Under the pieces are notes generated by a model that ran no database searches, had not been told where the DNA came from, and was given only the letters and a program-made list of their open reading frames with translations. The position numbers and the translations under genes are program-made. A stretch of DNA of 39,657 nucleotides from a virus: positions 1 to 39,657 of IMG/VR virus record IMGVR_UViG_3300022200_000131. One strand, 5' to 3'. Shown piece after piece: positions 4,185 through 28,920 of this stretch (position 1 is its first letter; the number at the start of each line of letters is the position of its first letter).

Positions 4185-7100
4185 TTATCTACTAGGACGA
4201 TCCGCTCGTTCAGCTCGTTCAGGACGCTCCGCTCGCTCTGATCTTTGAGGTCTTTCAGAAGAAGTTGTCTTCTCTTTTTTAGCGTCATTAATTCCTTGGA
4301 ATAAATACTTCAGATATATTTTTCTCAAGTCCTTGTATCCAGGTATAACTCCCGTCTCTCCAGCTAACTCAAATGGTATTCTTTCAAATAACTCATCCTT
4401 ATTCTTCTGAATGGTCTCTTCGTTTTTTCCTGTCTGAACTCTTGTAGAAAGCTCACTAGCTCTTAACGCTGTTTTCACTACAGGTGTAAAAGAACCTAAA
4501 GAAGAAACAATTAAATTAAGAAACGCATTATCCTGTGGGTCTGGATTCAAAGCTATTTTTGAAAATACAACACTGTCTTTATACGGATTATATTCACCCT
4601 CTCTTGTTATTCCTTCGCCATACAGCTCATTTAGCCATTCTATCCCATAGTTTACTGGCATCTGCGCAAAGTTACCTAAGTTTCTACCAAAAGCTAGTGT
4701 GGCTATACCTCCCAAGATGTTTCTTGTTATGTCTGTGCTTGGATTTATCTCATCTTCATCATCGTCTATTCCTAGCATTGAAAATATTAAGCTAAAGACA
4801 GTCTCCATTGCCATTTTATACATTGACATTCTAACCACAGTTCCAGTTAGAAGCATTGCTCCCTGCATTCTTGTTATCTCGCCCTTGCCAAATAGGTTTT
4901 GAACACCTTTTAAAGCTGAATAGTATTCAAAGATTCTAAACCTACTCATGTACACGTTCATGGTTTGGTACGCTCTTTTTATCATAGAAGCGTCTGGGTC
5001 AGCCAAATTCTTAGGTATAGAGTCAAAAGGGTTGTTTGACGCAGCATTGTCGATTACAGCTGAGTCAGCAGCGGCAGACGACTGGTCTATAGCTTCGGCA
5101 AATCTTTCTCGATAAGCCTCGTCATTTGCCATTTTTTCCCAATTTAACTTCTGCCCTGTTAATTTCTTAAACTCTTGACTGAACACACCAATAAACAAAG
5201 GTCTAGCTATTAATGTATCTGGCTTTGATATAAGTCCTTCGTTGAATTTAATAGCAAAATCAAATGGGATTTTAGCAGCTGCAAATACAGTTTTTGCATT
5301 GGCCGAGAACTCACTAGTCATCTCTTCGTTAGAGAACAGCTTTGATTTTTCAAACAACCTAGACTCAACGCTTGATGAGCTTTCTAGGTCAGCGTTCCCA
5401 GTGATTCTAGAACCCTGTGTTGTATTTGTAAACCTAAGTGCCGCATCAATTATTTCTGAGCTTTCGCTAAACATAATTTTCTCTCCATTAACAAAAGCTG
5501 CTGGATTCAAGAACATAGCGTGTGTCGCATTTGTTGTTAGCTCGACTACAGATTTAACTGGTCCAGCTAATTGAGATAAGTATCCAGCCTTACCAAACCA
5601 AGCCAATCCCTTTTCAATAACAGCGCTATTTCTAACATTAGCCTGGAACTCATTTCTAATAATAGTGTCGTAAACATCCTCCAACGAAGAAACAAGGTCT
5701 TTAGAGAACTTAGTTTCAGCTTTTTTAGATAAGCTACTAAACGACACCTTTGCAGACTTAACGACTGGGTACATATAGTAGCTATTTATAGCTTTTCTCG
5801 ATGCTGCGTAAGCGTTTGATACCGGGTCAAATGATACTGAGTGAGTCTTGCCAGTACGTTGTATTAAAGCCTTGCTTTTTATTGATGGGTTTTTAAATGT
5901 TTCAAACAAATCATTGAAGTCATCACTTACTTGGTCAGTCTGCTTTGAGGATTTTGGTAAGTGTACGTAGTTCTCTCTTAAGATAAATGGCAATCCCTGA
6001 GCTGTTGCATCAACCGTTGCCTTATCTTGGATGCTGTTATAAACTTTATCTATAAGTCTTAACGCTTTAACTTCTTTTTCAGTTAAACTATCGAAAATAC
6101 TTTTAGCGTCTATCTGCCCATCAACTAAGAACTCATCTCTTATTTTTTCTAAAGCCTTGATTTCCTTATCGCTAAGAAGCGTGTCCTTGTCTTTAATTGA
6201 TGCGTTAATCCAATCAATAGCTGGGTTTACCTCTTTATTGCCTTTGTTGCTATCAAATTCTCTTTGTATTTGATAGATCATAATCTTGGCTTTCTGAATA
6301 AACCTTTCATTTTGGTTGAATGACAAAAGATTGTTTGCTGCTTTTAAGTTTGTTTCAGCTACTTTTAAATCATCTTGAGCTTTTGATAGAGCAACAGAAG
6401 AAGGTCTGAACAAAGACTCGTACAACGATGTGGCTTTAAACTTCTTAGCACCGTCCTTCATTTCCTTTTCAACATCGAATAGTTGTTCAAGATTCTTTAA
6501 TGGACTTGCCGAAATTCTATCAGCAACAGCTGTAGACTTATTTTTTCTTGACTTAAATGTATTTGTTGCTCCAGTTTTTATTCTGCTGTATACCTTATCT
6601 ATTACGCCAGATTCTTTTATCTCTAGAAGAGGAACTTTGTTTGCAGCTCTGTGACCATCAATCTTTATAATTCCTTGAACTAAACTAGGTGTCACAAATC
6701 CAGCTCTCATCATTTCGATGCCTCTTACAGTTAACTTAGCATCTCTAACGCTTAAATCTCTAAGGTCTTCTACTGTTATTTTGTTAGCCTTATCAACGTA
6801 CACCTTCTCCCCAGACATTAAAGAGATAAATGAAGACTGGGCTTTAGCCATAGCTTCAATAAAATCACTCTCTATTACCTTACGATTTTCAGACTCAATC
6901 ATTGATTTGTATTCAGCTAATTCCTCGTCTGTATATCCCTCCATAGGATCAACTATAGACGATTCATTTAGAATCACACTAAATCTAGTTATGATGTCAT
7001 GCTCCTCCTTTGTAAGGATATCATCCTTTAACATTTTTGCTAGATTTGATCGTATGCTCTTGCTAGGATCTATTAAGTCATTTATAAGCGTAGCGATATT

Positions 7101-10100
7101 GTTAGCCTTTACTGAGTCTCTAGAGTAAGAAGTTATGATGTAATTTATATTTTTACTAAATTCCTCCCTGGTTGAATTATCATACTTTTTGTTTACATTC
7201 AATAAATCACTTATGATGCTGTCATACCTAGCTAAAGCATCGTCTGATAAATACTTTGGGTCTATTCTTATAGCGGTTATAAGAGAATTTTGTAGTTCCT
7301 TCAAAGCTCCTATCTTGGCTATATTTTTAATTGCATTAGCCCTTGCTTTGTATCTATTGTTTCTAGCTACTCTTGTCTCATCATTAGCTATAGCGTCACC
7401 AACGTTGTCAAGCATCTTCTGCATATTTCCAACTGTGGTATTCTTTAGGTTTGTGATAACCTTATTTACAGTTGTTTTAGAAAACTGACTTAAACTTGAA
7501 TCCTTTAACAATACCCTAAGCTCTGCTGCAACTACCTTTCTAGCCTCGTTATTATCAGTAAGCTTAGATATTTTATTCTTAAGGTTTTTTATAAGTTTTA
7601 CATTAACCGCGTCTTTTTCAATTACTGATGTAGGTGCGGCTTTTGATTTTGGAAATGCTTTATTTATAGCAGAGTCACTGTAACCCTCTTCTTTAAGGAA
7701 TTCTATTAAATCTTTGTTAGATATTCCTTCCTCCTTTGCAAAGTCTATTATATTTTGTATAGAAGGCTTGCCTTTTGAAAATTTAACCCCAACTGACTTA
7801 ATTTGTTTCTCTGTTATTTCTTTGCCTGATAGGATAGCTGCTAACGAATTATCTACAAAATCCTCTAAGCTCATGTTTTGAATCTCTTTTGGGGACATCC
7901 CTTCAAAACCATTAACCTTAGACTTAAGATAAGAAAACACAGCATTTAACCAATTTTTAAATTTTGAGTTTTTACCTGCTTCAATTATTGTTTCACCTCT
8001 GTTAGCAATCGCTTCAGCCATTGCTTCTTGCCTTGCTAATATAGTGTCTCCAAACTCTTCTATTTTTCTTTTAAGTAGCTCTGTACCCTCTAATAACTTA
8101 TATCCTTTTTCAAGCAATTCTGGATTATTCTCTTCCAAAAATGACATCCACACGTGTGAAAATTCGTGTAGTGGGGTGTTCAAACTTAACTTATCTGGAT
8201 TAAGGTATACCCTTCCGTCACTAGTAAATCCGTAGACTACCTCCCCGTCTTTTACAAACTTTTTAACGTTTGGTGAATCTAAAGCCTTGTCAAACTCTTT
8301 TTTAGTATCTACAACAGTTACGCTAGGAAAAGATAATTTTAAAAGACCCAGTAATTTGTTAAGGTCACTTAGCTTATCATTTATTTTCGCTCCTCTAAGA
8401 GCTTTAATTGCTGCTATCTGTCCAGACGCAGCAACAGCTTGCCCCACAACTTTTCTTACAGAAGGCATTACACCTCCAACCGCTGGCTTATTCATTGCAA
8501 ATATCCTAGCGTAAACCTCTGGGAAAACGTCTGCAACGTGTACAGGTGACTCTAGTACCCCAAGCATTTGGCCTTTAACTCCGTCAGGGTAGTTTCTATG
8601 GTTTGGTTTTGTAAGCTGAGGGTTTAATACATCAATAGAGGTAATGCCAATTATATGCTCCTCTGGGATATTATTTGTTGCTTCTTCTTTTAGTATGTTA
8701 TTAAGTGTCTGTGTGTGGATATACTTATTGTACTCTTTACCCTTGTTGCCTAATAGCGCAAAAGCAGATTTTTTAGATGGCCTTCCCTTAGTTGGGTCTG
8801 TGTCTTTACCTACACCTCCTGTAAATAATAAGTCTGACACTTGTCTTCTATCTCCAATAGGCGACAACTTATTTAAGTTATCGAGTAGTTCATCTATTGT
8901 GGTAAAGTTATTATCCTTAATAAATTGAATAACATTATTTTCTGAGTATACCTTATTTCTCAAATCAAGTTCCTCAGACTTTGTTAGCGGCTTTAAGCCT
9001 TTCTTTTTTCTGTTTTTATTTTCTTTAGTAATAATACTACTAGTAGAGTATATAAAATCTTTTATGTCCTCCTTCAAACCAATCAAAGAGTTTCTCCTTT
9101 CTTCCTCTGAGAAGTGAGTCTTTATGTTGTCTGCCGCCAGTCTAAATAGTGCTTCGTTAGTCAGTATAGACTCTTGCCCCATCTTAACTATTGCTACAGG
9201 AATATGTCCGTAAGGTAGATTCTTCTCTTTCCACAACCTGTCAAAAAGCTCAGTATTGTTTCTGTAGACTTCCTGCGCATTATTAAGCATTTCTGCTGCT
9301 TTATCCTCAGCAGTGTTTGCCCAAGCATTATTCTCATTACCTTCAGTCAAAGCAAACCCTAAGCCTCCATTTAAGTCTATGGTATTGCCTGTTAGTGGGT
9401 TTTCCTTTGCGCCAGAAGATAGTTGGTCAGATATAGTAAAGATAAAAGGTATGCCATTAAAGTCAGATATGTTTTTTATTACGCCTCCGTTCCAAAGACT
9501 CTTTAATTTATTCCCAAACCTTTGTACTAAACTACCAATGTTGATTTTTTCATTTGTAGTTAGATTAGATGGAGCATCAAAATTTGCTACTTCTTCTGGT
9601 AGGTTATCCATTTCATCTTGTACCTCCTCTTTGTTTGAGGTGTCAATAGTATCCCCTTGCTCTCCCTTTTTAAATTTAGGAGAAGTTGTGCCAAATTTTT
9701 CTCTTAGTTTTTCCTTATCTGTTTTAGAAGCTTGTTTAGGTTCTGATTTAGGCTTAGTATTAACAGCGACCTTCTTCTCAGATGGAGCTTTCTTAACCTC
9801 AACTTGTTCTTCTCCAACAAACTCTAAATAAGTCTCGTTAAATGTCTCTTCGTCAAATTGTTGCTGTATAACCTTCTCTTCAGATACAGCTACGGCTATT
9901 TCTGGAGACTTTATTGTTATTTGGTTTCCCTCTTTAGTTTTAAAAGTAACACTAGTCGGATTACCTTCTTTGTCAAGGTTTACTACACCGTCATTAAAAG
10001 CTTTCGATGTTTCACCTAAGACTACTTTTTGCTGAAGGGTATCAGTTTGAGACACCTTTCTTTCATCTCCTTCCACCACAGTTGGATTAGCACTTTCAAG

Positions 10101-12728
10101 AACATAGTACTCCCTTCCGTCTGGAGTTTGAGTAACTGATATTGTACCTGAAGCACCACCACCTTTACCGTCTGTGTATTTTACCTTCTTACCTACGAAG
10201 TTTTTTTCTTTCCTTGGGATTGTTTTTCTTGGAGTCTTTTTAGAAACTGTCCTTGTACGTTCTTCGGCAACTTTTCTAGTTTCAGTCGTTGTGATATTGT
10301 CATAATTTTCTAACTTTTGAATTTCATCTTCTATTAATTCTCGCATTATTTCAGCCTCCTGGGTATTAACCCCGTCTAGCTGGTTTAACGCATCGTAAGC
10401 CTCGTTTAAAGCGTTATCTAGTTTTACCTCATTGACAGACTCACCGCTAGAAATAGTGATTGAAACCTCGTTAAAAACAGCTTTGTTTTCCAATACTGTT
10501 TCAGAGGTTAGGTCTGCTTCTTGATCACTAGGTTTTAACCCTGTATTATCTTTATTTTCAGTTTCTTTTATTTTTACCTCTTGTGATTTTATCCTTATCT
10601 CTTCTTCTAAAGATTTTATCTCTTCATCTATTTGTTCTTTAGCAACACCTTTTTTATTCTTTGCTTCTGCTCTAAGTTCCGTAAGCCTTATTGCTTGATC
10701 TAAAGTAGTTGATGCTTCCTCTTCTGTGAAGCTACTAGGTATCTCAGATACCGCCTCAAATGATTTGTTTACCTTATTTAAGAATGCGTTCGCATCTTCT
10801 TTTTTTACTATTCCTTTTTTAACAAATTGATCCAAAACCTGTTTAGTTCCATTTAAGTCTCTACTAGCTTTGAGTATCATTTGATTCTCAATTTGCTTTC
10901 TTTTATTCAAGCTTGTTATAGTTGGAATAGTACCAGATGCGATAGTAGTTGTAGCTACAGTATTGATTAATTCACCCAAAGTTGGTAAGTAAACTTCAAC
11001 ATCTTCATTTTGAATAGCTATAGCTCCAGTTTGAAATGTCTTTCCAGCCAAGACAAGAATTTCTTCTAAGTTCTCTTTACCAACTATTTCTCCAATACTC
11101 TTTAACGCTTCTTTAGCAGCAAAACGATTTCCTCTAGATAAATTAGATGCAAATGTTTTAAGAGCAATATCTTTAATTTCTTTTGAGAAAATTTTGTTAT
11201 CTGGCATTATAAGCTCTGTAGCTCCCTCTAGTAAAGACATGAATTGAGTATAAGCGAAAGCATCTGATCCGCTTAGATTCATTTCTTTAGCATCCCTCCT
11301 ATTACTCTCTAATGAAGCAGCGTATCCACCAGCAACAGTATATACGTTTTGAGATGAAGAAACTAAAGCGTCTTTAGCAAATGAAGTTAATAAACTACCT
11401 TCTGTTGAAGCCAACGCAGCTCTTCCAGCGTATACATTTCCCAAAGCTAAAGCTGCTAATATACCCACTTGATCTGCCGCACCTAAAAAAGCACCGCCTA
11501 AATCATACTCTCCAGTTTGTTCGTTATAAAACTGTCTCTCACTTACAAGTAGTTTATCTTTATATGTTTTATCAGCATAGTCTAATATTCTATCAGATAT
11601 AGTGTACAAATCACCCCTACCTGTAATATCTTCAAAGCTTGAAGCAAGAGTAGCTGGAAGAGTTATTAAATCAGTGGCAACGTTGTTTAAGCTATTTAAT
11701 GCCCTGAAAGCTAAGTCTTTAGAAAAATTTAATACACCTCCTGTATTTAATTCGTCTATTATTTCTTGATCTTCTCTTATCTTATCTATGATAGGCTTGT
11801 TTTCTGTTTGAAGATTCACAAACTTTGCATAATCATTTATGAAGTTTGTTTTTTTCTTTTCAATTTCTATATAAGATAAGAAGTCAGTAGGCTTTTCAAT
11901 ACTTTGTAATTCCGATGCTTCTTGAGTGATTTTATTTCTTAGGTATTCAGATTGAATAAGAAATGACTCTTCATTATCTATAGTTTTATCTTGTCTGTAT
12001 CTAGATAATCTTTCAGGGTCGTTTAATAAATCAAATCTCATCTTTTGATTAAAAGAAGAGTCACCCATCATCATAGGGAACGCATTATTGATAATGCTAT
12101 CCAACCCTTTATCAAAGTCTGTTTTAAAATTTTGAGAATCATTTTGGGAAGCAATATCAGCGTCAATCTTTGCTTTTTCATTAACTAACAACGCATCACT
12201 TGCTTTATTTACCTCATCTTCAAGCATCTTGTCTTGCTCAGGAATCTCTTGAAGTTTTTTTCTCACTAAGTCTTCAAAATTTAATTTAACACCTAGTTTA
12301 TCTTTTTCTGCTTGTTTTTCAGAAATTACTTGAGTTGGTTTTTTATTTCCGTCATCCCAACTATATAAGTCTGAGTCTTTTGGTTTTTTATTTTGTTCTT
12401 TTGAAATAGATTCTGTGGATTTTAAATACTCTGGTGTGTTATCTATAAAAGGAATCCCATTCTGCTTTGAAGGCTCTGTAGGCTGCGACTGTAGCTCCAC
12501 AGAGCCTTTTGTAAAATTTACAGGTTCACCCTCCACGCTGCTAGAAAACACAGATTGAAATTCCTCTGGAGTATTTGGAACATCTATTTTTTGTGACTTT
12601 ACAAATGAATAAAATTGACTTGCGGTATTCTTATCTTGCATTGAAGATTGAAATTCCTTATAAGATTCAGGAACGTCTATATTAGATGACTTTAAATATT
12701 CGTAAAATTGCTCTCCTTTATCGTTCAT
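4185..12728 (-). CDS. Giant internal virion/ejection protein (2847 aa) with zinc metallopeptidase motif
   Basis: The largest gene in the window and the last of the structural operon, a place that in T7-like and crAss-like phages holds DNA-ejection or cargo proteins. The N-terminus has two copies of a short unit (QFYEYLKSSNIDVP near residue 7; QFYSFVKSQKIDVP near 38). Long charged, coiled-coil-like segments rich in K/E follow. At residues about 1519-1526 is LHEFSHVW, with H1521, E1522 and H1525 forming a HExxH zinc site, and a downstream QEAMAEAIAN offers a third Glu ligand. This resembles the peptidase modules of phage 'polyvalent' giant proteins. A hydrophobic region lies in the last 250 residues (ending near FSLIFSMLG), and the extreme C-terminus is an R/E/S/P-rich repeat tail. 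Known families suggest it is packaged in the capsid and ejected; peptidoglycan or protein cleavage is inferred. Not a tape measure by context. Confidence 0.75.
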   Translation of the reverse strand: MNDKGEQFYEYLKSSNIDVPESYKEFQSSMQDKNTASQFYSFVKSQKIDVPNTPEEFQSVFSSSVEGEPVNFTKGSVELQSQPTEPSKQNGIPFIDNTPEYLKSTESISKEQNKKPKDSDLYSWDDGNKKPTQVISEKQAEKDKLGVKLNFEDLVRKKLQEIPEQDKMLEDEVNKASDALLVNEKAKIDADIASQNDSQNFKTDFDKGLDSIINNAFPMMMGDSSFNQKMRFDLLNDPERLSRYRQDKTIDNEESFLIQSEYLRNKITQEASELQSIEKPTDFLSYIEIEKKKTNFINDYAKFVNLQTENKPIIDKIREDQEIIDELNTGGVLNFSKDLAFRALNSLNNVATDLITLPATLASSFEDITGRGDLYTISDRILDYADKTYKDKLLVSERQFYNEQTGEYDLGGAFLGAADQVGILAALALGNVYAGRAALASTEGSLLTSFAKDALVSSSQNVYTVAGGYAASLESNRRDAKEMNLSGSDAFAYTQFMSLLEGATELIMPDNKIFSKEIKDIALKTFASNLSRGNRFAAKEALKSIGEIVGKENLEEILVLAGKTFQTGAIAIQNEDVEVYLPTLGELINTVATTTIASGTIPTITSLNKRKQIENQMILKASRDLNGTKQVLDQFVKKGIVKKEDANAFLNKVNKSFEAVSEIPSSFTEEEASTTLDQAIRLTELRAEAKNKKGVAKEQIDEEIKSLEEEIRIKSQEVKIKETENKDNTGLKPSDQEADLTSETVLENKAVFNEVSITISSGESVNEVKLDNALNEAYDALNQLDGVNTQEAEIMRELIEDEIQKLENYDNITTTETRKVAEERTRTVSKKTPRKTIPRKEKNFVGKKVKYTDGKGGGASGTISVTQTPDGREYYVLESANPTVVEGDERKVSQTDTLQQKVVLGETSKAFNDGVVNLDKEGNPTSVTFKTKEGNQITIKSPEIAVAVSEEKVIQQQFDEETFNETYLEFVGEEQVEVKKAPSEKKVAVNTKPKSEPKQASKTDKEKLREKFGTTSPKFKKGEQGDTIDTSNKEEVQDEMDNLPEEVANFDAPSNLTTNEKINIGSLVQRFGNKLKSLWNGGVIKNISDFNGIPFIFTISDQLSSGAKENPLTGNTIDLNGGLGFALTEGNENNAWANTAEDKAAEMLNNAQEVYRNNTELFDRLWKEKNLPYGHIPVAIVKMGQESILTNEALFRLAADNIKTHFSEEERRNSLIGLKEDIKDFIYSTSSIITKENKNRKKKGLKPLTKSEELDLRNKVYSENNVIQFIKDNNFTTIDELLDNLNKLSPIGDRRQVSDLLFTGGVGKDTDPTKGRPSKKSAFALLGNKGKEYNKYIHTQTLNNILKEEATNNIPEEHIIGITSIDVLNPQLTKPNHRNYPDGVKGQMLGVLESPVHVADVFPEVYARIFAMNKPAVGGVMPSVRKVVGQAVAASGQIAAIKALRGAKINDKLSDLNKLLGLLKLSFPSVTVVDTKKEFDKALDSPNVKKFVKDGEVVYGFTSDGRVYLNPDKLSLNTPLHEFSHVWMSFLEENNPELLEKGYKLLEGTELLKRKIEEFGDTILARQEAMAEAIANRGETIIEAGKNSKFKNWLNAVFSYLKSKVNGFEGMSPKEIQNMSLEDFVDNSLAAILSGKEITEKQIKSVGVKFSKGKPSIQNIIDFAKEEGISNKDLIEFLKEEGYSDSAINKAFPKSKAAPTSVIEKDAVNVKLIKNLKNKISKLTDNNEARKVVAAELRVLLKDSSLSQFSKTTVNKVITNLKNTTVGNMQKMLDNVGDAIANDETRVARNNRYKARANAIKNIAKIGALKELQNSLITAIRIDPKYLSDDALARYDSIISDLLNVNKKYDNSTREEFSKNINYIITSYSRDSVKANNIATLINDLIDPSKSIRSNLAKMLKDDILTKEEHDIITRFSVILNESSIVDPMEGYTDEELAEYKSMIESENRKVIESDFIEAMAKAQSSFISLMSGEKVYVDKANKITVEDLRDLSVRDAKLTVRGIEMMRAGFVTPSLVQGIIKIDGHRAANKVPLLEIKESGVIDKVYSRIKTGATNTFKSRKNKSTAVADRISASPLKNLEQLFDVEKEMKDGAKKFKATSLYESLFRPSSVALSKAQDDLKVAETNLKAANNLLSFNQNERFIQKAKIMIYQIQREFDSNKGNKEVNPAIDWINASIKDKDTLLSDKEIKALEKIRDEFLVDGQIDAKSIFDSLTEKEVKALRLIDKVYNSIQDKATVDATAQGLPFILRENYVHLPKSSKQTDQVSDDFNDLFETFKNPSIKSKALIQRTGKTHSVSFDPVSNAYAASRKAINSYYMYPVVKSAKVSFSSLSKKAETKFSKDLVSSLEDVYDTIIRNEFQANVRNSAVIEKGLAWFGKAGYLSQLAGPVKSVVELTTNATHAMFLNPAAFVNGEKIMFSESSEIIDAALRFTNTTQGSRITGNADLESSSSVESRLFEKSKLFSNEEMTSEFSANAKTVFAAAKIPFDFAIKFNEGLISKPDTLIARPLFIGVFSQEFKKLTGQKLNWEKMANDEAYRERFAEAIDQSSAAADSAVIDNAASNNPFDSIPKNLADPDASMIKRAYQTMNVYMSRFRIFEYYSALKGVQNLFGKGEITRMQGAMLLTGTVVRMSMYKMAMETVFSLIFSMLGIDDDEDEINPSTDITRNILGGIATLAFGRNLGNFAQMPVNYGIEWLNELYGEGITREGEYNPYKDSVVFSKIALNPDPQDNAFLNLIVSSLGSFTPVVKTALRASELSTRVQTGKNEETIQKNKDELFERIPFELAGETGVIPGYKDLRKIYLKYLFQGINDAKKEKTTSSERPQRSERAERPERAERADRPSR

Positions 12729-12740
12729 TTGTATATCTTA

Positions 12741-14918
12741 TTATTTTTTAGAAAATGGATTTGTCACTGGTTCTTCAGTGCTTGCTTCTACGCTTGTTTT
12801 TAATTTTTGTTCAGTAAGAAAGTCACTAAGCTTTTTATTAATTTCATTTATCTCTTCCTCTGTGGACGAAGCAGTGGGTAGTTTAAGGTCTAACACTTCT
12901 TTATCGTTGCCATCCTCTACAATTATTCCCTGCCCTCCTGCATAATAACGTCTAACACTAAGACCTCCTTCTTTAAATACTTCTGGGTATTTAGTGGTTA
13001 ATGTTTCAGCTACAACTTTATCATCTTTATATAGCTTAGTATTATCTGGATTCTTTAATAAATCAATAGTTTCTTTAACGTCTTTTTTAGCTAATCTAGA
13101 TTTATTTGCCTCTTCTAAGTTTTCAGATTTACCATATCTTACTTCATCAAGGGAGTTTTGATCTACATTTCTCAACTCTGTGTCAATAGCACTTCTTAAG
13201 TTCTTTATTTCTTGCTCTTTGTCTTTAGCTTCGAAATCATACTTAAATGTAAGCTTTTCTCCAGAAGGAACTAACTCACCATCCCTCATTACATTTGGTT
13301 TTGGGAACACAAATGTTTTTGATTTTTCATCATAATAAGCAGTTCCTTTTTCGCCTTTAAAAGCATTAGTTAAAATACTAGAGATATTAGAAAGCCTTTC
13401 ATCGTCATACCTTGCAATATCCGAAACACCAAACACATCTTCAGATTCAGCGAGCTTTAACTCTTCAATAAACTTATCTGTTATCTCAGTATTCATATTT
13501 CTTTGAATCTCTCCCTCTGTTGGTTTTCTGACTGTAGGTTTTTCTACTTTTGTTCCAGGAATAGGAACGCCAGTCTGCTGATTAAATACTCCTGCATCAG
13601 TCAATTGAGAAATAGTATACATACTTGTAAGATTCTCATAACCAGCTTTAGTCATGCCTCCGTATTGATCTCCACCAGCTGACAAGTCAAAAAACTCTGA
13701 ATTTATCTCTGTTGCTCCGTCTTTCTCTGTAGCTAAAACAATCCTTTCTCCAAATATAACACTGCCGTTTTTGTCATATTGTAAAAATCCATCTTCAGCA
13801 GTTTTAGGTTTTGAAATAAAGTATTCTCCTGTTTTTGAGTCGTAACTAGCGTACGCTTGTATGTTTGATAACACCCTGTCTGGACCAGACTTAGAAACTA
13901 ATTGAGCTAATGCCTTAGCATCGTTTACTACTAAGTTTTGAGTCTCGTTGAAGTTAATTGATTTATTAGATACTTGGACACTGCTTCCATCTGGAAGAAC
14001 CTTTGTTGTAGTACCTATATTTTTTAAGAACTCTGGATTCATTAATCCATTCTTACCAGTCAATCCTACCTTGTTAGAGCTTTGCTGCATTCTTTCATCC
14101 CAGTCGTCATTAACAATATATCCAAACATACTATTTGGACTCTTTGTAGGGTCTGATAAGAAGCTACTCACTTTCCCCATGTCTACCTCAAACTCTTTTC
14201 CTTCGTTTAGTTTAGACATATCTTTCCCAGCGTACTTTGCCACAACTCTGTATCCGTCAGTAGCGTTACCTACAACACTAAATTCTTCTTTAATATCTAT
14301 TCCATTACTTGGATTAGTAGACATGGCAATAGCCATAACTTTTGGGTCTGTTAGCTCTGGGTTTATCTGACCTCTACCTGTACCAACTCCTTTGGTAGCA
14401 AGTATGTCTTCCATCTTGCCAAGGTTGGCATTGTATAAATCTACAGTTTGACCTACATTATTTATTAAGTCGTTACCAGCTTTAATTTGATTTAAATCAT
14501 CCTCTCTTGTAATAGTTCTAATCTCCCCGGTGATAGGGTCTACCTTCTGTCTGTTGTAGCTCCCACCTGATGAGTTGTACGCAATCAATGCTTCTGTTTG
14601 ATCATCCAATACTTTACTCATGGTTTGCTTCAATACATCTGTATTTTCAGATGCAGCTTGCTTAACTATATTGCCTTTATCGTCAAATTGAGGGCCAAAT
14701 GATTTATTAAGATCATTCTGCATCGTCATTTTTTGCGTCTCAGCATTCTTAATAATCTCTTGATTCTTCGCTTTTCTTTGTCTATTAGCGTCAAAAAAAC
14801 CAACAGCTAAACCACCTACAGTAGAGACAGCTGCCGCTGCAATCTGACCTCCAATGTCATTCCTCTCTATTGGCCTTGAATCCCTCTGACTGATTCCTCC
14901 TTGATCTCTATAACCCAT
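12741..14918 (-). CDS. Putative internal virion protein, 725 aa
   Basis: The protein lies between the 213-aa and 2847-aa genes, with 12 bases to the latter. The N-terminus has a short Ala/Gly/Val hydrophobic stretch (GGQIAAAAVSTVGGLAVGFF, about residues 23-42) that could be a membrane-active or membrane-associated helix. The remainder is soluble, rich in D/E/K/N/T, with no catalytic motif I recognise. The C-terminus ends TEEPVTNPFSKK. By position it is probably a capsid-internal or ejected protein working with the 2847-aa protein, analogous to T7 gp15, but there is no sequence similarity I can point to. Confidence 0.6.
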   Translation of the reverse strand: MGYRDQGGISQRDSRPIERNDIGGQIAAAAVSTVGGLAVGFFDANRQRKAKNQEIIKNAETQKMTMQNDLNKSFGPQFDDKGNIVKQAASENTDVLKQTMSKVLDDQTEALIAYNSSGGSYNRQKVDPITGEIRTITREDDLNQIKAGNDLINNVGQTVDLYNANLGKMEDILATKGVGTGRGQINPELTDPKVMAIAMSTNPSNGIDIKEEFSVVGNATDGYRVVAKYAGKDMSKLNEGKEFEVDMGKVSSFLSDPTKSPNSMFGYIVNDDWDERMQQSSNKVGLTGKNGLMNPEFLKNIGTTTKVLPDGSSVQVSNKSINFNETQNLVVNDAKALAQLVSKSGPDRVLSNIQAYASYDSKTGEYFISKPKTAEDGFLQYDKNGSVIFGERIVLATEKDGATEINSEFFDLSAGGDQYGGMTKAGYENLTSMYTISQLTDAGVFNQQTGVPIPGTKVEKPTVRKPTEGEIQRNMNTEITDKFIEELKLAESEDVFGVSDIARYDDERLSNISSILTNAFKGEKGTAYYDEKSKTFVFPKPNVMRDGELVPSGEKLTFKYDFEAKDKEQEIKNLRSAIDTELRNVDQNSLDEVRYGKSENLEEANKSRLAKKDVKETIDLLKNPDNTKLYKDDKVVAETLTTKYPEVFKEGGLSVRRYYAGGQGIIVEDGNDKEVLDLKLPTASSTEEEINEINKKLSDFLTEQKLKTSVEASTEEPVTNPFSKK

Positions 14919-14941: not shown

Positions 14942-15583
14942 TTAATAAGGATTTCCGAGATTGTAATCACGCGAACTGCCAAATACATCTTTAGAAAGTC
15001 TCCTTCTTGATAAAACTGACGCTTCAAAATCACCAAGTGCTTGATAAGATCTATCATCAGCTAACTGCATTTGGTTTGCGTAGAAATCTAAATCAGCATT
15101 TGTTCTTGCCTCCTCAGCAGAGAATGTGAACTCCATACCAGCAGCCTTAGCAGCTTGAACCCTTTGTTTTTCAGATGCAACCATTTTTTGAAGTTGTGCG
15201 TCACCATCAGCTTTTAACTGTTGATTCTTAGCCTCTTGTTGTTCTATGTTTGCCGTAACCTCTCTTTTACTCTGTAAAGCAGCTTGTGCTAAAGCGGTTG
15301 CACCACCAGCTCCTGAACCTGTAGCCCTAAGAGTGTCTAACGTGTTAGCAAGCGCAGCGTCTGTTTGTTCCATTTGCATTTTCGCAGCTTGAGTAGCAAC
15401 ACCTAAATTAGCATAAGGATTAAAGAACGTGTCGCTTATATCAGTAACTGCTGATGACGGGTCTAAAATCTCAGCTCTTTGACTCCTAATATTCATTAAA
15501 GAACTATAGTTCAATTTAGCCTGTTCGTTGTAGTACTGCTCCCTTTCCTGAGCTGCAATAGCCTCTCTTCTTTTTCTTCCCAT
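14942..15583 (-). CDS. Putative internal virion protein, 213 aa, alanine/glutamine-rich
   Basis: The sequence is rich in Ala, Gln and Glu with long helical segments and a central glycine/alanine patch (RATGSGAGGATALAQAALQS). It starts MGRKRREAIAAQEREQYYNE and has coiled-coil-like stretches around residues 110-155. Composition and place (after the tail proteins, before two larger ejection-type proteins) resemble T7 gp14-like small internal core proteins of podoviruses. The assignment rests on synteny and composition, not on a diagnostic motif. Confidence 0.6.
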   Translation of the reverse strand: MGRKRREAIAAQEREQYYNEQAKLNYSSLMNIRSQRAEILDPSSAVTDISDTFFNPYANLGVATQAAKMQMEQTDAALANTLDTLRATGSGAGGATALAQAALQSKREVTANIEQQEAKNQQLKADGDAQLQKMVASEKQRVQAAKAAGMEFTFSAEEARTNADLDFYANQMQLADDRSYQALGDFEASVLSRRRLSKDVFGSSRDYNLGNPY

Positions 15584-15594
15584 TTCTTACTATG

Positions 15595-17268
15595 TTATTT
15601 TGATGAAAGCACATTGTTAGTTGATACCGCAAATAATTGCTTGCTTCCACCAACATCAGTCGTTAAATCTGTTTTTATTTTTACTGTTGCGTAAAATCCT
15701 TTTATTCCTGATATGTCGTTTCCGTAAACAACCTCATCAATTCTAGCAGTACTATTATTAATTAAATTAGCAACATACTTACCTTCTTTTCTATCGAATC
15801 CTGCTCTGTAGGTAGTTCCACCTTCCTTATAAGCTCCTTCGTCATAACTATAGACGTTTGCAGTCACATCTTGGTAGTCATTCAAACTAGGTGGTCCAGA
15901 ATAATTATTTAGGTCAATGCCTTGAGCATCTGACTTAAAACTTTCTATTGTCCAACCATTTGTTCCTTCGTATGAAACAACATTAAAATTCTTAGATATA
16001 GACACGCTTGGGTTAAATACAAACGTCACACTAGTTTCAGTTTGCTGACCATAGAACAAACCTTTGTTTTTAGCCGTAGTATTGTCATAGTGCTTCCATA
16101 TACTTCCACCCTTTGCTGTGTAATAACTTGAGTTTAATGTATCTGCAATATTTGGCTTGTAATCCCAAAAGCTGCTGAATCCGTTATTTGAATCGTTAAA
16201 AGAAACTGTACTGTACTCACCATCACCTACTGATAGATTTTTTACAGCTGGCTGTATTGAAACAACGTAAGAGTCTTGATAGTTATCGTAACCACCAACT
16301 ACCTTATCTTTAACAAGTTTGTATAGGTTAAGAGTTCCAGATCCAGCGTTCATAAATTGACTAAAGGTTACACTTGCTGATGTTGGACTAGTCACCGATA
16401 TGTTTGTAACATAAGCACCACTAACACCACCGTAGTTTCCGTACACGCTCATACCAAGCTCTATCAAGTCTACAGAACCAGTTAAATTTATTGTTTGACC
16501 AGTTCCAGACACCGCGAAAGCAATCAAATCACTTAACTTATAATTACCTGTTATTGACGAAAGTTCATCTCTAAAATGATCCCTCATTCCATACTCACTA
16601 ATTTCTGTGATACCGTCTCTGGAGAGTCTTAAAATAGCTCCCCTTGGTTGGTCACCCCAATAAATTCTATTGCCTTTTTTAGCAAATGATTCCGGGTGTT
16701 TACCTATTCCATATTCACCAGAGTAAGGGGTTACCTGACCTATCACTAAGTCGCTTGACGTAACCGTAGCGTCTCCTTCAGCAGAGTATATTGCAGACTT
16801 GTCTATCAACGCTCTACTCACCTTATCTTCCTGGAACACCATTAGGTTACCATCATTGGTGTATATTCTTTGTATGCTTCCGTATGTTGGGTCAACACTC
16901 TTTGTTATGTTTTCACCAACTGAGAATACGTTTGTTTCGTTAAAATCAGTAAGCGCGTTGTATATACCTGAGTAGATTAATGAATTTGACGATACAATTT
17001 CATCATCTTTTGTTTCGGTTATATAAGCCCTAACACCATAACCAGTTTCGGTGTTATTATAACCACCTCTAATTCTAGACTCTTCTACGTACCACCTGTA
17101 ATTGTTTGACACAGCTGTCTCCGGGACTCCATTTGTAGGCCATGTTAAACTATATGGATTCCAAGGTATACCGGGCCAAATAGCTTTACCACCTGCTGGA
17201 GAACCAGAGGTGGTAACTTTTTTAACTATAAATGAGTTGAAGTATTTTATTTCAATTAATGCACCCAT
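15595..17268 (-). CDS. Tail protein, 557 aa (crAss-like/podoviral tail hub or nozzle component)
   Basis: A beta-rich protein dominated by S, T, N, G and Y. Around residues 186-228 it carries a run of the type YGIGKHPESFAKKGNRIYWG followed by RGAILRLSRDGITEISEYGM. I associate this wording with structural tail proteins of crAss-like and related Bacteroidota phages, where a propeller-like domain precedes a distal region. The last ~240 residues look like beta-sandwich domains and could contact the receptor. It starts 2 bases after the 1118-aa gene ends and in another frame, so the two are separate genes. No dedicated tail fibre is visible in the window, so this protein or the 1118-aa one may carry that role (inference). 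Confidence 0.65.
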   Translation of the reverse strand: MGALIEIKYFNSFIVKKVTTSGSPAGGKAIWPGIPWNPYSLTWPTNGVPETAVSNNYRWYVEESRIRGGYNNTETGYGVRAYITETKDDEIVSSNSLIYSGIYNALTDFNETNVFSVGENITKSVDPTYGSIQRIYTNDGNLMVFQEDKVSRALIDKSAIYSAEGDATVTSSDLVIGQVTPYSGEYGIGKHPESFAKKGNRIYWGDQPRGAILRLSRDGITEISEYGMRDHFRDELSSITGNYKLSDLIAFAVSGTGQTINLTGSVDLIELGMSVYGNYGGVSGAYVTNISVTSPTSASVTFSQFMNAGSGTLNLYKLVKDKVVGGYDNYQDSYVVSIQPAVKNLSVGDGEYSTVSFNDSNNGFSSFWDYKPNIADTLNSSYYTAKGGSIWKHYDNTTAKNKGLFYGQQTETSVTFVFNPSVSISKNFNVVSYEGTNGWTIESFKSDAQGIDLNNYSGPPSLNDYQDVTANVYSYDEGAYKEGGTTYRAGFDRKEGKYVANLINNSTARIDEVVYGNDISGIKGFYATVKIKTDLTTDVGGSKQLFAVSTNNVLSSK

Positions 17269-17270
17269 AT

Positions 17271-20200
17271 TTAATCTGTTCTATTTATAGTTGTAGACTG
17301 TATGGTTTGGTACTGTAGTCCAGTTCCTCCTGAGTCAATTAATCTAAGTGTAACCCTTACATTTGTAGTAGTTCTGTTTTGGTAGTTGTATAAAGAACTC
17401 AAGTTAGCTCCTAAAACATTTAAGCATACAAATTGATTATTGTACTGCAACGTCTCAGGTATAGACTGTCCACTTCCCTTAACTATTCTAAACATATCTC
17501 CAACAGGAGTCTCGTACTCTGTCCATTGATTGCTATTGTTAGTCCATTGAAACTCAGCCTTTACAACCTCCCACACAAGACCAGTCTTTTGAGCTGATGT
17601 TTCGGCAGATCCATTAACTCCGTCTAAAACAGAAAGTTCAGACCAAGCAGAGGGTTGTCTTATTTCTTGTATTGGATTAACTGTAGATGCGGTAGCGCTT
17701 GGAGATACATTTGATAGATAATTACCGTATCCAGTGGATATTAATGAAACACTCGTATTCCCATTAGAAGCCTTTATTGTAAAGGTGTAGTTATCTCTTA
17801 TTATACTATGCTGATTATAAGTAAAGTAAGCCCCAGCTGAAGTTGTTATATAAAAACTATTATCAAAATCTTTATAGATATTAAACTTATCTGTAACAAC
17901 TCCACCGTTACCATCTCTAACCTCTATTAATTCTGCCTGTGTGTTGATGTTAGACAATAAAATATTGTTAGATGTGGCTAAGTTAAACCTACAAATCTCA
18001 GTTCCTGGAGTATCATCTTCTGACAAGCTCCACACAAAATCTCTTAACTGAACTGGTGTCTTTGAGAAGTTTTGAGCTACGTTTTTATTTAACTCAGAAA
18101 TAAGTCCAGAGGTGCTAGTCTCCCAAAATATATCTAAGTTTGATACAAACGGTGCTGTTTCGTATACATTTAATCTTGTTTTTAAGTCGGTAACACCCGG
18201 AGCTGGAGTAGAGGTTAAATCACCACCGCCTGGCGCTCCAATTAACTTCAACGTGGACACTCTACCAATGTATGGGTTTGCTCCTACTAATGATGATCCG
18301 TCTCCAATCACATCTCCAATATTATCTGTTGGTATACTGTAAAATGGAGAGCTATAATACTCCTTACCGCCAGCGGTTCTATCTAACCCAATTTCATTTC
18401 TATCACCTATCAATGTTACTTCGTCAGCTATATTTTCTGGAAAGTACTGTCTATTTGTAGCTGATGTAGATAAATAACTAGTATTGTAAACCCTGCCATA
18501 AAGTCTTACAGAGCTTGAAAACTGAACATCTTGAGGCCCAACTTCCTGCAAGTCTCTAGGTACTTTGTTTATGTTATCAGAAAAAAGAGTTATATAAGCT
18601 TCGTCATTGACCAAATCATACGCTGCGTTACCAGTTATGTTTTGTGGGTATCCATTTAATATTGTTGGTAGGTAAACATTGTAATAACTCTGCTCCTGTT
18701 GTTTTACTACAAACTTATAGCTGTACCAGCCTAGAGGATTTTCCTCTTCGTTGTACAAGCCTATGTACCCTATGTTTGACGAAACATTTGGTATAGGAGC
18801 GTTAAATTGAACCTGTAAAGAATCACCTAAATAATCCAAGTCCATAAGAGAACTCTTGTACGGATGAAATACAGTTGAATTTGGTGAGAGTATCACATCT
18901 GACTGCCTTCCAAATTTATCAGATAAAACTACTCCAACTTGGTATGTTCTATTTTGTTTTACCGTATGATTTGGGTACTCCCTTTGAGATGTTGAACTAA
19001 ATGAGCCGTAAGTTAATTTACTTCCAGTTGTTACGCTGTAACTCAAAGAGCCTAGAGAAGCGCTTCTTAAGGTTAGATTTCCGTATATAACTCTATTACC
19101 AGCAACAGCTTGTGCTTTTGCTCTTAACGGAACTTTATCACTAACTCTAATTGTTTCTTTTGTGGGTAATGACCTTATTGGCTTTGATGAGTCGTACGTG
19201 TAGATGTATTCTGTCCCGGACGCTGTTTTAAGTTCGTCAAACGTTATTGTGTCTACAACTTTTATTGTTACACCGTCTGACTCTTTGTATAATATATCTA
19301 TCTCAGTTACCTTGTACTTATCATAAATGCTATTCGTGTCATCCCCAAGTACAACATCTTCTGGCATTGGTATGCTAACGTCTACCTTGTTTACTTTATT
19401 TTCAAAAAAATCAACTACGGTACTTTTAATAGTACTTACCTCATCACTATCAGAAGCTGAGTCTAACATACTTGTAGGTATAGAATCCTCCGTAAAGTAT
19501 CCATCTTGCTTAGGTATGAATGCCGCTTGTGAAAACGGAGCTATTAACGAATACTCGTTATCTTCAAATTTGAACCTGTAAGAAAATCTTACAAATTTGT
19601 CAGACAAGAATTTTTCATCGCCTGTAAAGTTAGCATCGTAATATGGATTTGGAGTAACACCATCTGGAAGGTTTTGACTTACAACGTCCCACATAGACTG
19701 AGTTCTAGCCATGTTTGACCTAGTGACAACAAATACAGCGTCTCCAAGAACGCTTGCGGGAAAAAACAATGCCGATAGTGTAGCGTTACTTATTGTTATC
19801 GTATCTCCTGGTTCGTAACCACTAACTCCATTGTTTGTAGTTATTCCAGTTTCAATAATATATTGGTTTGTAGCACCAGTTGGAGCAAAGCTAACAGAAA
19901 ATGTTAATGCTCCACCAACACCGCTAGTTGTAGCATTAGAGCCAACGGTAAATGATTGAGAAGGAGGAGGTGAGGCCAACCCGTTTATTCTTGGTATTGT
20001 TTGCAATTGAAGCACGCTCCCAGTAAATAATGTGCCATCACCATTAAGTGTGCTTAGATCTGGAGCGAAACACGGATAGTACTTAGCTACCGATATATGG
20101 TCTTCAGATGTGTAGTAAGGATTTGATGAGCCATATGGATTTGCTAGAGCTAGGTTTACATTTATTTTTCTAGGTTGATTTCTATTGTCTGTAAAAAACA

Positions 20201-20627
20201 ACAAGTTCTCTATCAGGTCAATGCCTAGAATTTCATGTGTATCAGAAAAGTTTAAAAAGCTACCACCAACAAGAATTGTATAATCATTTGATACTGTGTT
20301 ATATACAGCTATATAATGAGCCGAAGCAGACGGAGCTGGGTTTGATAAACCACTAGCAGACGAATCTGTGTAGTTAGTAATAAAGGCAAACAATCTATCA
20401 TTAGAGCTGTCTACGTAAAGACCTATAATTTTTAACTTTGAATCAGTTAATCCAAAGTCAGTTAACTCTATATTGCCAAAAACATTTTCAAGCATACCAG
20501 AGTCACCCCCAGCTGAATCAGTAACCGAAGCATTTCTAGCTTCTATATATTCACGGTTAGATATCAATCTTGGATCAAGATCTTTATTCATCTTAGCTCC
20601 AAGAAAAACGTTTTTAGTTTCTGCCAT
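17271..20627 (-). CDS. Large tail protein, 1118 aa (tail nozzle/tubular B-like)
   Basis: The N-terminus (MNKDLDPRLISNREYIEARN at 13-32, then SGMLENVFGN at 43-52) resembles the opening of large podoviral tail proteins of Bacteroidota phages. The N-terminal part then alternates beta-strands with lines such as LLFFTDNRNQPRKINVN (142-158), like a propeller fold. An inserted element with VSGYEPGDTITI lies at about 268-279. The remainder is beta-rich and likely multidomain. It sits between the 399-aa connector-like gene and the 557-aa tail gene, as T7 gp12-type nozzle proteins do. A structural role in the short tail is well supported by context; the exact position in the tail is inferred. Confidence 0.65.
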   Translation of the reverse strand: MAETKNVFLGAKMNKDLDPRLISNREYIEARNASVTDSAGGDSGMLENVFGNIELTDFGLTDSKLKIIGLYVDSSNDRLFAFITNYTDSSASGLSNPAPSASAHYIAVYNTVSNDYTILVGGSFLNFSDTHEILGIDLIENLLFFTDNRNQPRKINVNLALANPYGSSNPYYTSEDHISVAKYYPCFAPDLSTLNGDGTLFTGSVLQLQTIPRINGLASPPPSQSFTVGSNATTSGVGGALTFSVSFAPTGATNQYIIETGITTNNGVSGYEPGDTITISNATLSALFFPASVLGDAVFVVTRSNMARTQSMWDVVSQNLPDGVTPNPYYDANFTGDEKFLSDKFVRFSYRFKFEDNEYSLIAPFSQAAFIPKQDGYFTEDSIPTSMLDSASDSDEVSTIKSTVVDFFENKVNKVDVSIPMPEDVVLGDDTNSIYDKYKVTEIDILYKESDGVTIKVVDTITFDELKTASGTEYIYTYDSSKPIRSLPTKETIRVSDKVPLRAKAQAVAGNRVIYGNLTLRSASLGSLSYSVTTGSKLTYGSFSSTSQREYPNHTVKQNRTYQVGVVLSDKFGRQSDVILSPNSTVFHPYKSSLMDLDYLGDSLQVQFNAPIPNVSSNIGYIGLYNEEENPLGWYSYKFVVKQQEQSYYNVYLPTILNGYPQNITGNAAYDLVNDEAYITLFSDNINKVPRDLQEVGPQDVQFSSSVRLYGRVYNTSYLSTSATNRQYFPENIADEVTLIGDRNEIGLDRTAGGKEYYSSPFYSIPTDNIGDVIGDGSSLVGANPYIGRVSTLKLIGAPGGGDLTSTPAPGVTDLKTRLNVYETAPFVSNLDIFWETSTSGLISELNKNVAQNFSKTPVQLRDFVWSLSEDDTPGTEICRFNLATSNNILLSNINTQAELIEVRDGNGGVVTDKFNIYKDFDNSFYITTSAGAYFTYNQHSIIRDNYTFTIKASNGNTSVSLISTGYGNYLSNVSPSATASTVNPIQEIRQPSAWSELSVLDGVNGSAETSAQKTGLVWEVVKAEFQWTNNSNQWTEYETPVGDMFRIVKGSGQSIPETLQYNNQFVCLNVLGANLSSLYNYQNRTTTNVRVTLRLIDSGGTGLQYQTIQSTTINRTD

Positions 20628-26514: not shown

Positions 26515-28920
26515 TTACCTTGGTTCGAACTGCTCCAAGCCGATGCCTCCTAGCACATCATTCCCGGATGATTCAAAATCCGTTGGTAGTAAATTGTTTT
26601 TCCTTTGATTAATAAGCTCACTTTGCTGTGATGCTTGTATTTTAGTTCGCTTGTCTTTTCTGTCTTCCGTTTCTCTTACTTTTGTTCCTTCAGAATTAGC
26701 TTTTATTTGAGCTAACTGCATATTGAAATCAAACTCCGCTTGCATCAAACCTCTTTTAATCTCAGCTTCCTCTCTCATCTGTGTGATTATAAAGTTTGAT
26801 TTTGCTTGCTCAATATTTATTTTTTCAGCAGTAAGCGCTTGTTGTTTTTGAGTTTCAGCCATAGCAGCTCTTTCAGCAGCCTGAGCGTTAGCCTCTCCCT
26901 GCATCTTTATATTCTGTTCTTGCTGCGCTCTTTCTCTTTCAAGCTTCTTTTGTCTTTTCTGCTTTAGAATCTCATTAGCAAGTTTGATGTTGTTTATCTC
27001 TCTAATGTCAATAACATCTTCTATGTCGATTCCTCCCATCTTTAGGGCAATCTGTATGTTTTGCTCCAACTGAGCTTTTTCTTCATCTTCTGGCTCAAGT
27101 TCTAGATAAATACCAAAGTCGTGTAAGTGAAGCTTGCTAATTTCTTGAAGCGTACCTACATTGTAAGCACTTATTGCGCTTTGAAGAGAATTGTTTGTCA
27201 ATGCAAATTCAACAGAGTCAGCAATTCTTAACGACAAGTTTTCAGCCGTTCTAGCAATCAAATACAAGCTAGACTGTAATATGTGTCTAGTTGCTACATT
27301 TGACGCATTAGCGGCAAGCTTCTGAAGCCCTACGAGCGTATCCTCCATTGGAGTGCTACCATCTCTTGCTTCGTTAAGACCAGTCACATCTCTGATCATC
27401 TGCAAGTAGTACTGATAAGTATTTATTAAAGCAGCTAATTTTGCTTGTCCGTTTGATGAGTTTAATTCCTGGATAGGAACTTTCCCTCTGTTTGCGTCAC
27501 CTTCTTGTGTTAATGACCTGCCAAGTATACTACCTGTTTGGAAGTACATATTTAAAGCTTCCTGCGGACTATAATTCGTTCCATTACCTAAGTCTACTTC
27601 AGCTAATCCGTCAACATCCAAATAAACACCATCTGGTACTAATCTAGATATAACCTGTTGTATTTTTAGGTTAGTGATATTAATCATATCTGCAAATCCT
27701 GTAATCTTACTTACGGTAGACTCTATCCTTCCCTTATACATTCTAGGAGCTGTGATAGCGTAATTCATTCTAACCTTAGTTGTGTCAGCGTAAGGTCTAG
27801 TCATGTTTTCAGCTAACCTCCAATCAATCATTCTATCTCTTCCAAGTATTTTTACGCCTTGGTATAAAACATCTATAGTTCTAGAAACTCTTTGGAATGT
27901 GTCTGACTGAGGTGGGTTGAATGAGTCTGTTTTCTCTAATACTTTTTCTAATCCAGTTCCAGTTTGTTTTATTTTGAATACTTGATTCATATATGTCTTA
28001 TACTCAAAGTATAAAACCTGAACAGTATTTTCATCGTAATCATTCCACCCAACAACAAAATCGTTTCGATTCCCCATCTTAGAAATCTCATTAAGCTCTT
28101 GCTCAGATATATTTGGGAATTGCTTTTTCAGCTCTGGTATTGTTATTGACTTAACCTCTCCAACATAGTATATATCTTCAAAGTTTGGGTCTTCTGTGTA
28201 AGACCAAACCATTCTAGCCGGGTCGCAGTACTCAATGACGATGCCCTCTGATTTATTCCAACTTGTTTTTACTGATGCGATACCAAGTACGGTTAAATCT
28301 AGGTTTAATCTTCTTCTTGTTAATTCAAATTTGTTTTTGTCAAACGTATTGTTTATTGCTTCTTCTTCAGCTATCTCTATTGATGGCTTGTATTTTAGTT
28401 GCATATATATAGCCACCTCTTCAGGGTTCTCTGGCATATCAACCTTATTTGGGAAGTTAGAAACATCTATACCTAAATCGTTTTTCAACTTTTGTATTTG
28501 CTCTTGAGCTACAACATCTCTTAATAAGTTGTTTGCGTAGTTTGTTCTTTCTTTTAATGAAGCTGGGTCTTGAGAGTATGCGTTAATCTTATACTTCTTT
28601 TCAGACATCCCATTAACCACTATATCCACAAACTTTGATATAACTGGTACTGGCTTCCAATCTAAATTAAGGTATGACAAATCACCATTTATAGATAATT
28701 CATCCTTGTATTTTTGTATAGGTTGTTCACCTCTAGCGTACAATCTTAAGTTGTGGTACTTATTCCAGTTAGTAGCAAATCTGTTTCCGCTTCTACCACC
28801 GTTAAACCACTCACCCTCTATAGCTCTACCAACCTGAGCGCCATACTCAAAACTACTTTTTTCCTCATCACTAACGACTTGGCTTGGGAACGAACTATTT
28901 GGATTTGTACTTATACTCAT
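26515..28920 (-). CDS. Portal protein, 801 aa
   Basis: The gene overlaps the terminase gene by 4 bases (ATGA) and is followed by the scaffold-like gene. Length is typical of large podoviral and crAss-like portals. The first 200 residues contain NWNKYHNLRLYARGEQPIQK and later LDWKPVPVISKFVDIVVNGM, typical of portal N-terminal wing/clip regions. The last ~170 residues are a long Gln/Glu/Ala/Lys-rich helix (ERERAQQEQNIKMQGEANAQ and beyond), matching a barrel domain that extends into the head. It forms the dodecameric DNA entry/exit channel. Strong by combined length, layout and order. Confidence 0.85.
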   Translation of the reverse strand: MSISTNPNSSFPSQVVSDEEKSSFEYGAQVGRAIEGEWFNGGRSGNRFATNWNKYHNLRLYARGEQPIQKYKDELSINGDLSYLNLDWKPVPVISKFVDIVVNGMSEKKYKINAYSQDPASLKERTNYANNLLRDVVAQEQIQKLKNDLGIDVSNFPNKVDMPENPEEVAIYMQLKYKPSIEIAEEEAINNTFDKNKFELTRRRLNLDLTVLGIASVKTSWNKSEGIVIEYCDPARMVWSYTEDPNFEDIYYVGEVKSITIPELKKQFPNISEQELNEISKMGNRNDFVVGWNDYDENTVQVLYFEYKTYMNQVFKIKQTGTGLEKVLEKTDSFNPPQSDTFQRVSRTIDVLYQGVKILGRDRMIDWRLAENMTRPYADTTKVRMNYAITAPRMYKGRIESTVSKITGFADMINITNLKIQQVISRLVPDGVYLDVDGLAEVDLGNGTNYSPQEALNMYFQTGSILGRSLTQEGDANRGKVPIQELNSSNGQAKLAALINTYQYYLQMIRDVTGLNEARDGSTPMEDTLVGLQKLAANASNVATRHILQSSLYLIARTAENLSLRIADSVEFALTNNSLQSAISAYNVGTLQEISKLHLHDFGIYLELEPEDEEKAQLEQNIQIALKMGGIDIEDVIDIREINNIKLANEILKQKRQKKLERERAQQEQNIKMQGEANAQAAERAAMAETQKQQALTAEKINIEQAKSNFIITQMREEAEIKRGLMQAEFDFNMQLAQIKANSEGTKVRETEDRKDKRTKIQASQQSELINQRKNNLLPTDFESSGNDVLGGIGLEQFEPR

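Follow-up and report, generated by a model that had tools for sequence, protein, structure and literature searches.

Late gene region and source genome

The DNA analyzed here, referred to as the window, is the entire IMG/VR record IMGVR_UViG_3300022200_000131 (39,657 bases). As it encodes terminase, portal, muzzle and further virion proteins together with GroES/GroEL and ribonucleotide reductase, its source is a crassvirus-like podovirus near the Pachyviridae and Pervagoviridae, whose cultured members have Flavobacteriia as hosts. A giant gene is the final gene of the late operon, in which the following were identified.

28917-31133, minus strand: terminase large subunit (phrog_6681, E 3e-163)
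26515-28920, minus strand: portal protein (phrog_6547, E 4e-144)
17271-20627, minus strand: muzzle protein, N-terminal part (split gene)
15595-17268, minus strand: muzzle protein, C-terminal part (crAss_MUZ_C PF25729; crAss001 gp44, E 2.4e-45)
14942-15583, minus strand: small gene of a trio, 213 aa, in the position of T7 gp14 / N4 gp52 (homologue of phi18:3 gp120, E 3.5e-25)
12741-14918, minus strand: medium gene of the trio, 725 aa, in the position of T7 gp15 / N4 gp51 (by position and size, with weak sequence similarity only)
4185-12728, minus strand: giant gene, 2847 aa, last of the operon, probably an ejected polyvalent-type virion protein

The giant gene and its HExxH motif

The giant reading frame starts with ATG and comprises 2847 codons, reading from 12728 down to 4185, which confirms the gene as drawn in the initial annotation. 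That annotation had also pointed to HEFSH at H1521-H1525 and to a likely third Glu in QEAMAEAIAN. The motif lies exactly there and the protein has no other HExxH; 0.005 occurrences are expected from composition (13 His in 2847 residues). QEAMAEAIAN occupies residues 1567-1576, and the proposed third Glu is therefore E1568. To judge from the alignments, the motif is no chance occurrence, because H1521, E1522, H1525 and E1568 are invariant both in a 42-sequence alignment and in 86/86 homologous domains.

8154-8168, minus strand: HEFSH, residues 1521-1525, two predicted zinc ligands and the predicted catalytic Glu (H, E and H invariant in 86/86)
8025-8027, minus strand: E1568, predicted third zinc ligand (invariant in 86/86; part of no search pattern)
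11439-11495, minus strand: most hydrophobic stretch, residues 412-430 (mean hydropathy 1.52)

A hydrophobic region that had been noted near the C terminus does exist at residues 2636-2654 but is weak (mean hydropathy 1.28), residues 412-430 being more hydrophobic; no 19-residue stretch of the giant reaches 1.6 or more. An Arg/Glu/Pro-rich tail, SSERPQRSERAERPERAERADRPSR, closes the protein (window about 4188-4262). Whole-protein searches of Pfam, PHROGs, NCBIfam and PDB sequences gave phrog_32588, at the C terminus, as the sole informative family. The Pfam matches to mTOR_dom, RepB_C, FliS and IF2_N were weak, fell under their cut-offs and were dismissed.

A predicted zincin preceded by a YTH-like domain

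7803-8369, minus strand: predicted zincin metallopeptidase domain, residues 1454-1642 (AlphaFold model, VIA-align, conserved motif)
8376-9527, minus strand: alpha/beta domain with a helical insert, residues 1068-1451 (high pLDDT; resembles YTH, PUA-like, at fold level only)

The initial annotation had named structure prediction of residues 1300-1700 and a profile search against MPTase-PolyVal as checks on a peptidase, and the two came out differently. The AlphaFold model with the zincin, for which 40 sequences served as input, predicts a gluzincin fold at residues 1454-1642 (pLDDT 87). HExxH sits on the helix after the edge strand in this model, and E1568 lies on a later helix (546-569 in model numbering), where it could act as a ligand. 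When model positions 437-625, equivalent to residues 1454-1642, were compared by VIA-align, zincins dominated the matches, with the M34 lethal-factor family at Z 6.9, PPEP-3 at Z 6.1, IrrE at Z 5.6 and M1/M2 peptidases at Z about 4. These values are moderate (4-6.9), yet the fold class recurs over the motif region across unrelated families. Foldseek of the zincin model against the PDB gave nothing significant, and the fold claim thus draws together the modeled structure, the VIA-align matches and the motif; profile searches A4 and A5 against the PDB returned chance matches only. The Pfam MPTase-PolyVal model (PF18818), in turn, does not match anywhere in the window and is absent among the matches listed for 40 homologues (E 0.1). 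Assignment of the zincin to PF18818 was rejected by this profile test. Most likely, the domain is of a type that is exchanged among phages of Bacteroidetes and is not listed in standard libraries.

An alignment-based query that combined the window domain with two relatives retrieved 80 zincin loci and others were reached via the C-terminal module described below, while the window's zincin region on its own, as a bare query, retrieved no relative. The homologous domains form two groups, an HEFGHxW type and an HE[VI]FHA type, and H, E, H and the downstream Glu are invariant in all 86 of them. Because HEFxHxW was part of the pattern with which the first group was searched, the HExxH conservation of that group is biased; the second group, 22/22 invariant, was found via other regions, with no HExxH in the pattern. 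Purifying selection is seen on the domain, with a median dN/dS of 0.125 (81 pairs, non-independent). E1522 is invariant though it is no ligand, which points to catalysis, and as the invariance of a non-ligand Glu is otherwise hard to explain, the zincin is probably an active peptidase. The single relative from the genome collection, L149, is on a contig of an Aliivibrio metagenome-assembled genome, and is probably a phage contig binned there.

The alpha/beta domain that precedes the zincin aligns to YTH domains with VIA-align Z of 5.7-6.4 (YTHDF1 YTH domain, Z 6.4). YTH domains are PUA-like and bind modified RNA, and the modeled domain could be a nucleic-acid-binding payload. Polyvalent proteins combine several unrelated catalytic domains in a chain; the window giant has the zincin and, at fold level, the YTH-like domain, and the related giant L013, which has the same C-terminal module, combines a zincin with ART-PolyVal.

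Mosaic architecture of the giant

12543-12713, minus strand: N-terminal tandem repeat, residues 6-31 and 38-62, candidate packaging/portal-docking tag
10539-12542, minus strand: N-terminal block, residues 63-730 (69% identity to the giant of IMG/VR contig 3300022200_003705, L003)
7653-7778, minus strand: short helical hinge, residues 1651-1692, common to module borders
4188-7763, minus strand: C-terminal helical module, residues 1656-2847, likely for delivery (phrog_32588 at 2490-2814, E 3e-59)

Pairwise comparisons indicate that the giant is a mosaic, as the nearest relative of residues 69-730, 999-1692 and 1656-2820 is a different phage for each. The first segment has 69% identity with L003, whose tail genes are far less similar to those of the window (34% for the muzzle). 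The second has 31% identity with MW202828 and 51 to 58% with L024 and L025, and the third, along with the tail genes, is 45 to 62% identical to L006, L007 and L011 in most stretches. One mosaic border coincides with the hinge at 1651-1692, which is found at an equal position in many relatives.

The C-terminal module (~1190 aa) is common to related giants. Long helical parts had been expected, and the AlphaFold model of residues 1650-2847 is indeed almost all helix (pLDDT 69). With VIA-align, the phiM1 ejectosome protein ranked third and T7 gp16 fourth, aligning over 213 and 212 residues of one region of this helical, pLDDT 69 model at Z 5.9-6.1; most other rows were shorter coil matches. The modeled module thus weakly resembles T7 gp16, within the range of helical coincidence. 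In BFVD, it matches C-terminal pieces of phage polyvalent proteins (LPD, PolyVal-ART; E 1e-9 to 1e-4), as well as a structural protein of phi14:2 and, at E about 1e-3, two internal virion proteins (LKA1, Foldseek E 1.3e-3). A role as an ejection module is likely.

Wherever both were detected in a giant, the zincin is always N-terminal to the C module and never after it. Among the 25 giants with an intact start that were retrieved by the C module, a zincin was detected in 16 and not detected in 9, and the peptidase would therefore be an optional payload. Three Cellulophaga giants have no HExxH. Other domains in relatives include ART-PolyVal (3/13), LPD23, Kinase-PolyVal, pyrophosphatase (InPase), methyltransferase and GNAT.

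Giants are often opened by a tandem repeat of ~27 aa (consensus LNDLYNLFKSDGYTKSKEDFQSLMG), as also seen in L004, L013, L032, L033, L117 and others. A two-sequence profile for it found nothing, and the counts given here come from a broader seed. The repeat was detected in 34/84 giants, with two copies in 31, is very N-terminal and never past residue 200, and occurs in only 3/2042 other ORFs. A K-rich patch of the KKK[ED] type lies within the first 220 residues of 50/84 giants, versus 4.4% of later sequence windows. The N-terminal repeat is a candidate packaging signal.

A probable ejection gene trio

The giant is the third gene of a small-medium-giant trio (213/725/2847 aa), as is T7 gp16. The order is that of T7 gp14/gp15/gp16 (196/747/1318 aa) and N4 gp52/gp51/gp50 (150/644/3500 aa). 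Trio proteins of T7 and N4 are ejected and span the envelope. All 43 relatives with enough flank have a same-strand gene directly 5' of the giant, mostly a medium and small pair (medians of 597 and 270 aa), while genes 3' of the giant are often on the opposite strand, marking an operon border. An equivalent trio is present in cultured relatives, and gp120, gp121 and the giant gp123 of Cellulophaga phage phi18:3 are recorded virion proteins ("experimental MS/MS proteomics"). The window giant connects to the MS/MS-verified giants only via Gundel_1 and elemoA, through different segments and not end to end. Given the trio order, the virion status of homologues and the delivery-type C module, ejection is the best reading, and we consider it very probable that the giant is ejected into the host. 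The view of the initial annotation, a packaged giant with a peptidase, is thereby supported, with virion presence and enzymatic activity as probable properties. Neither of the two findings that it had named as contrary, a missing peptidase fold near residue 1521 and absence from virions, emerged in this analysis, since a zincin fold is predicted there and the giant of a cultured relative, phi18:3 gp123, is a recorded virion protein.

In one relative, the 870-aa medium gene (L002:1115-3727) weakly matches SLT transglycosylase (E 0.008), which fits what an ejectosome protein would need for opening peptidoglycan.

Comparison with known giant virion proteins

Like phage polyvalent proteins, in which the zincin is a hub domain (Iyer et al. 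2017, PMC5512222), the window giant is a giant late protein encoded alongside portal and terminase. The likeness extends to ART-PolyVal, Kinase-PolyVal, LPD23, GNAT and methyltransferase domains in its relatives, and to the BFVD link between the C module and C-terminal pieces of LPD/PolyVal-ART proteins. In contrast to them, it is matched by none of the PolyVal models of Pfam, its zincin falls outside PF18818, and a chassis with a swappable middle is resolved in its set.

The zincin domain of N4 is the founder of the polyvalent-protein peptidases (PMC5512222). Like N4 vRNAP (gp50, Schitoviridae), which is ejected, the window giant closes a small-medium-giant trio and would be ejected too; both have a zincin followed by a mostly helical C-terminal part, of ~1100 aa in N4. 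Unlike in N4, no RNA polymerase domain was found in the window giant, none of the RNA polymerase families of Pfam and PHROGs being matched. The family zincin profile matches the N4 vRNAP zincin at 2179-2346 (15.6 bits), and hhalign of the zincin family against the N4 family (C1, N4 2124-2375) gives P 2.4e-4, versus 0.06 for the best of 30 decoys. The window zincin and the N4 domain are thus distantly related. At the sequence level, the C module shows no similarity to N4 C2 (2376-3500; hhalign P 0.17). Several N4-like vRNAPs (L199, L201-L221) keep HExxH and not the third Glu, which suggests that some N4-type zincins may have lost activity.

The large ejectosome proteins T7 gp16 and phiM1 are comparable in gene order and sizes, and the common C-module region aligns to both. 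In contrast to T7 gp16, no transglycosylase domain was found in the window giant, and the C module has no similarity to T7 gp16 sequence profiles (hhalign P 0.6, no better than a reversed decoy).

In phicrAss001 (Crassvirales), gp45-gp47 are likewise encoded directly 3' of the muzzle, and their products are packaged cargo. One of them, the virion RNA polymerase-related gp47 (NC_049977; L019:34477-41502), contains HEAFH at 2157 and matches the family zincin profile marginally; beyond this match, no sequence similarity was found between the window giant and gp45, gp46 or gp47. The tail of the window phage is of the crassvirus kind, and for such phages storage of cargo in head and tail is known (PMC10172136).

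Giants of Pachyviridae, Pervagoviridae and Elemovirus (Gundel_1 gp74, phi18:3 gp123, phi38:1 gp101, elemoA gp21) are syntenic with the window giant and linked to it by segments. Those of Gundel_1 and elemoA carry a zincin, as the window giant does, whereas the Cellulophaga giants lack HExxH and are shorter (1691-1990 aa). The novelty is one of degree, as the class is known (polyvalent, N4-like) and the arrangement is new.

Proposed role of the giant and its peptidase

We moderately favor a combined statement in which the giant is a large ejected polyvalent protein, similar to N4 vRNAP with no detectable polymerase, and its peptidase cuts a host protein. This builds on the gene, the motif, the conserved triad, modularity, synteny and the virion record of homologues, together with the modeled fold; ejection, zinc binding, proteolysis and target are what we infer from them. 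The giant would be packed in the virion of a crassvirus-related podovirus of Bacteroidetes, exit by way of the portal and muzzle tail together with its 213- and 725-aa partners, either before the DNA or along with it, and help to form a conduit across the envelope. Its delivery chassis would consist of the N-terminal tag and block and, at the other end, the helical C-terminal module (~1190 aa). Between them, the exchangeable middle (about 730-1655), with the YTH-like domain and then the gluzincin peptidase, would be the payload. Zinc would be held by H1521, H1525 and E1568, with water activated by E1522. Once delivered, the peptidase would most likely cut a host protein, in the envelope or the cytoplasm; self-cleavage at domain borders, freeing the payload, would come next.

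Such self-cleavage leads to a rather unlikely alternative, a maturation or self-processing protease that would cleave the giant, either within the head or once delivered, for packing or release. Zincin-driven processing of polyvalent proteins is a published proposal, which includes the cutting of phage P1 DdrB before it is packaged (PMC5512222); moreover, the window zincin has the N block on one side and the C module on the other and adjoins the hinge where modules are exchanged. However, the zincin went undetected in 9/25 C-anchored giants and also in three from Cellulophaga phages, of which one is a virion protein by MS/MS. The family therefore cannot depend on cutting by this domain for assembly; this patchy distribution argues against an obligatory maturation role. 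N4 vRNAP, which has a related zincin, is also packaged whole. Because the module is optional, action on the host is preferred over self-processing. Zincin-lacking giants could be processed otherwise, and the host-target step is thus the weakest.

As N4 vRNAP is packaged uncut (PMC5512222), a related zincin need not have any known substrate. It might be a non-cutting, structural or regulatory module of a giant that serves as a conduit or tape-like virion component. In favor of this, the N4 CTD inhibits RNA synthesis by its own polymerase (PMC12633501) and the third Glu is not conserved among N4 relatives, but the catalytic and third Glu are invariant in 86/86 domains here and dN/dS is low, which makes this reading improbable. 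Least probable is that the giant, though made late, stays out of the virion as a replication or takeover protein and is not ejected, for while it is at an operon border with opposite-strand genes often next to it, it follows the muzzle and trio in the late operon and its homologues have MS/MS virion status.

Returning to the ejected host-directed peptidase, a wider and tentative possibility, which we doubt more than we credit, is that aquatic Bacteroidetes podoviruses have a plug-in injection system. In it, a fixed chassis, made of the N-terminal tandem tag with a lysine-rich linker, the C-terminal ejection module and the two partner proteins, would deliver exchangeable effectors, and a common plug-in peptidase would cut a host defense or envelope protein early. 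Polyvalent proteins have long been known, as has the N4 zincin, with no tested peptidase role. In this large phage set, the delivery frame is otherwise conserved while the peptidase may be present or absent, and phages with it (Tenacibaculum phage Gundel_1) and lacking it (Cellulophaga phages) are cultured, which makes the target of an injected peptidase directly testable. The split into chassis and payload also offers a way to predict ejected phage giants and the location of their effectors.

Two features of the surrounding genome may be added. The muzzle is encoded by two ORFs (1118 and 557 aa; window 15595-20627), as in L006, L007, L008, L011 and L016, and by a single unsplit gene in L003, L004, Gundel_1 and the Cellulophaga phages. 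GroES-like and GroEL-like chaperonins are both phage-encoded (window 31359-31955 and 37865-39406) and perhaps have a role in folding giant virion proteins.
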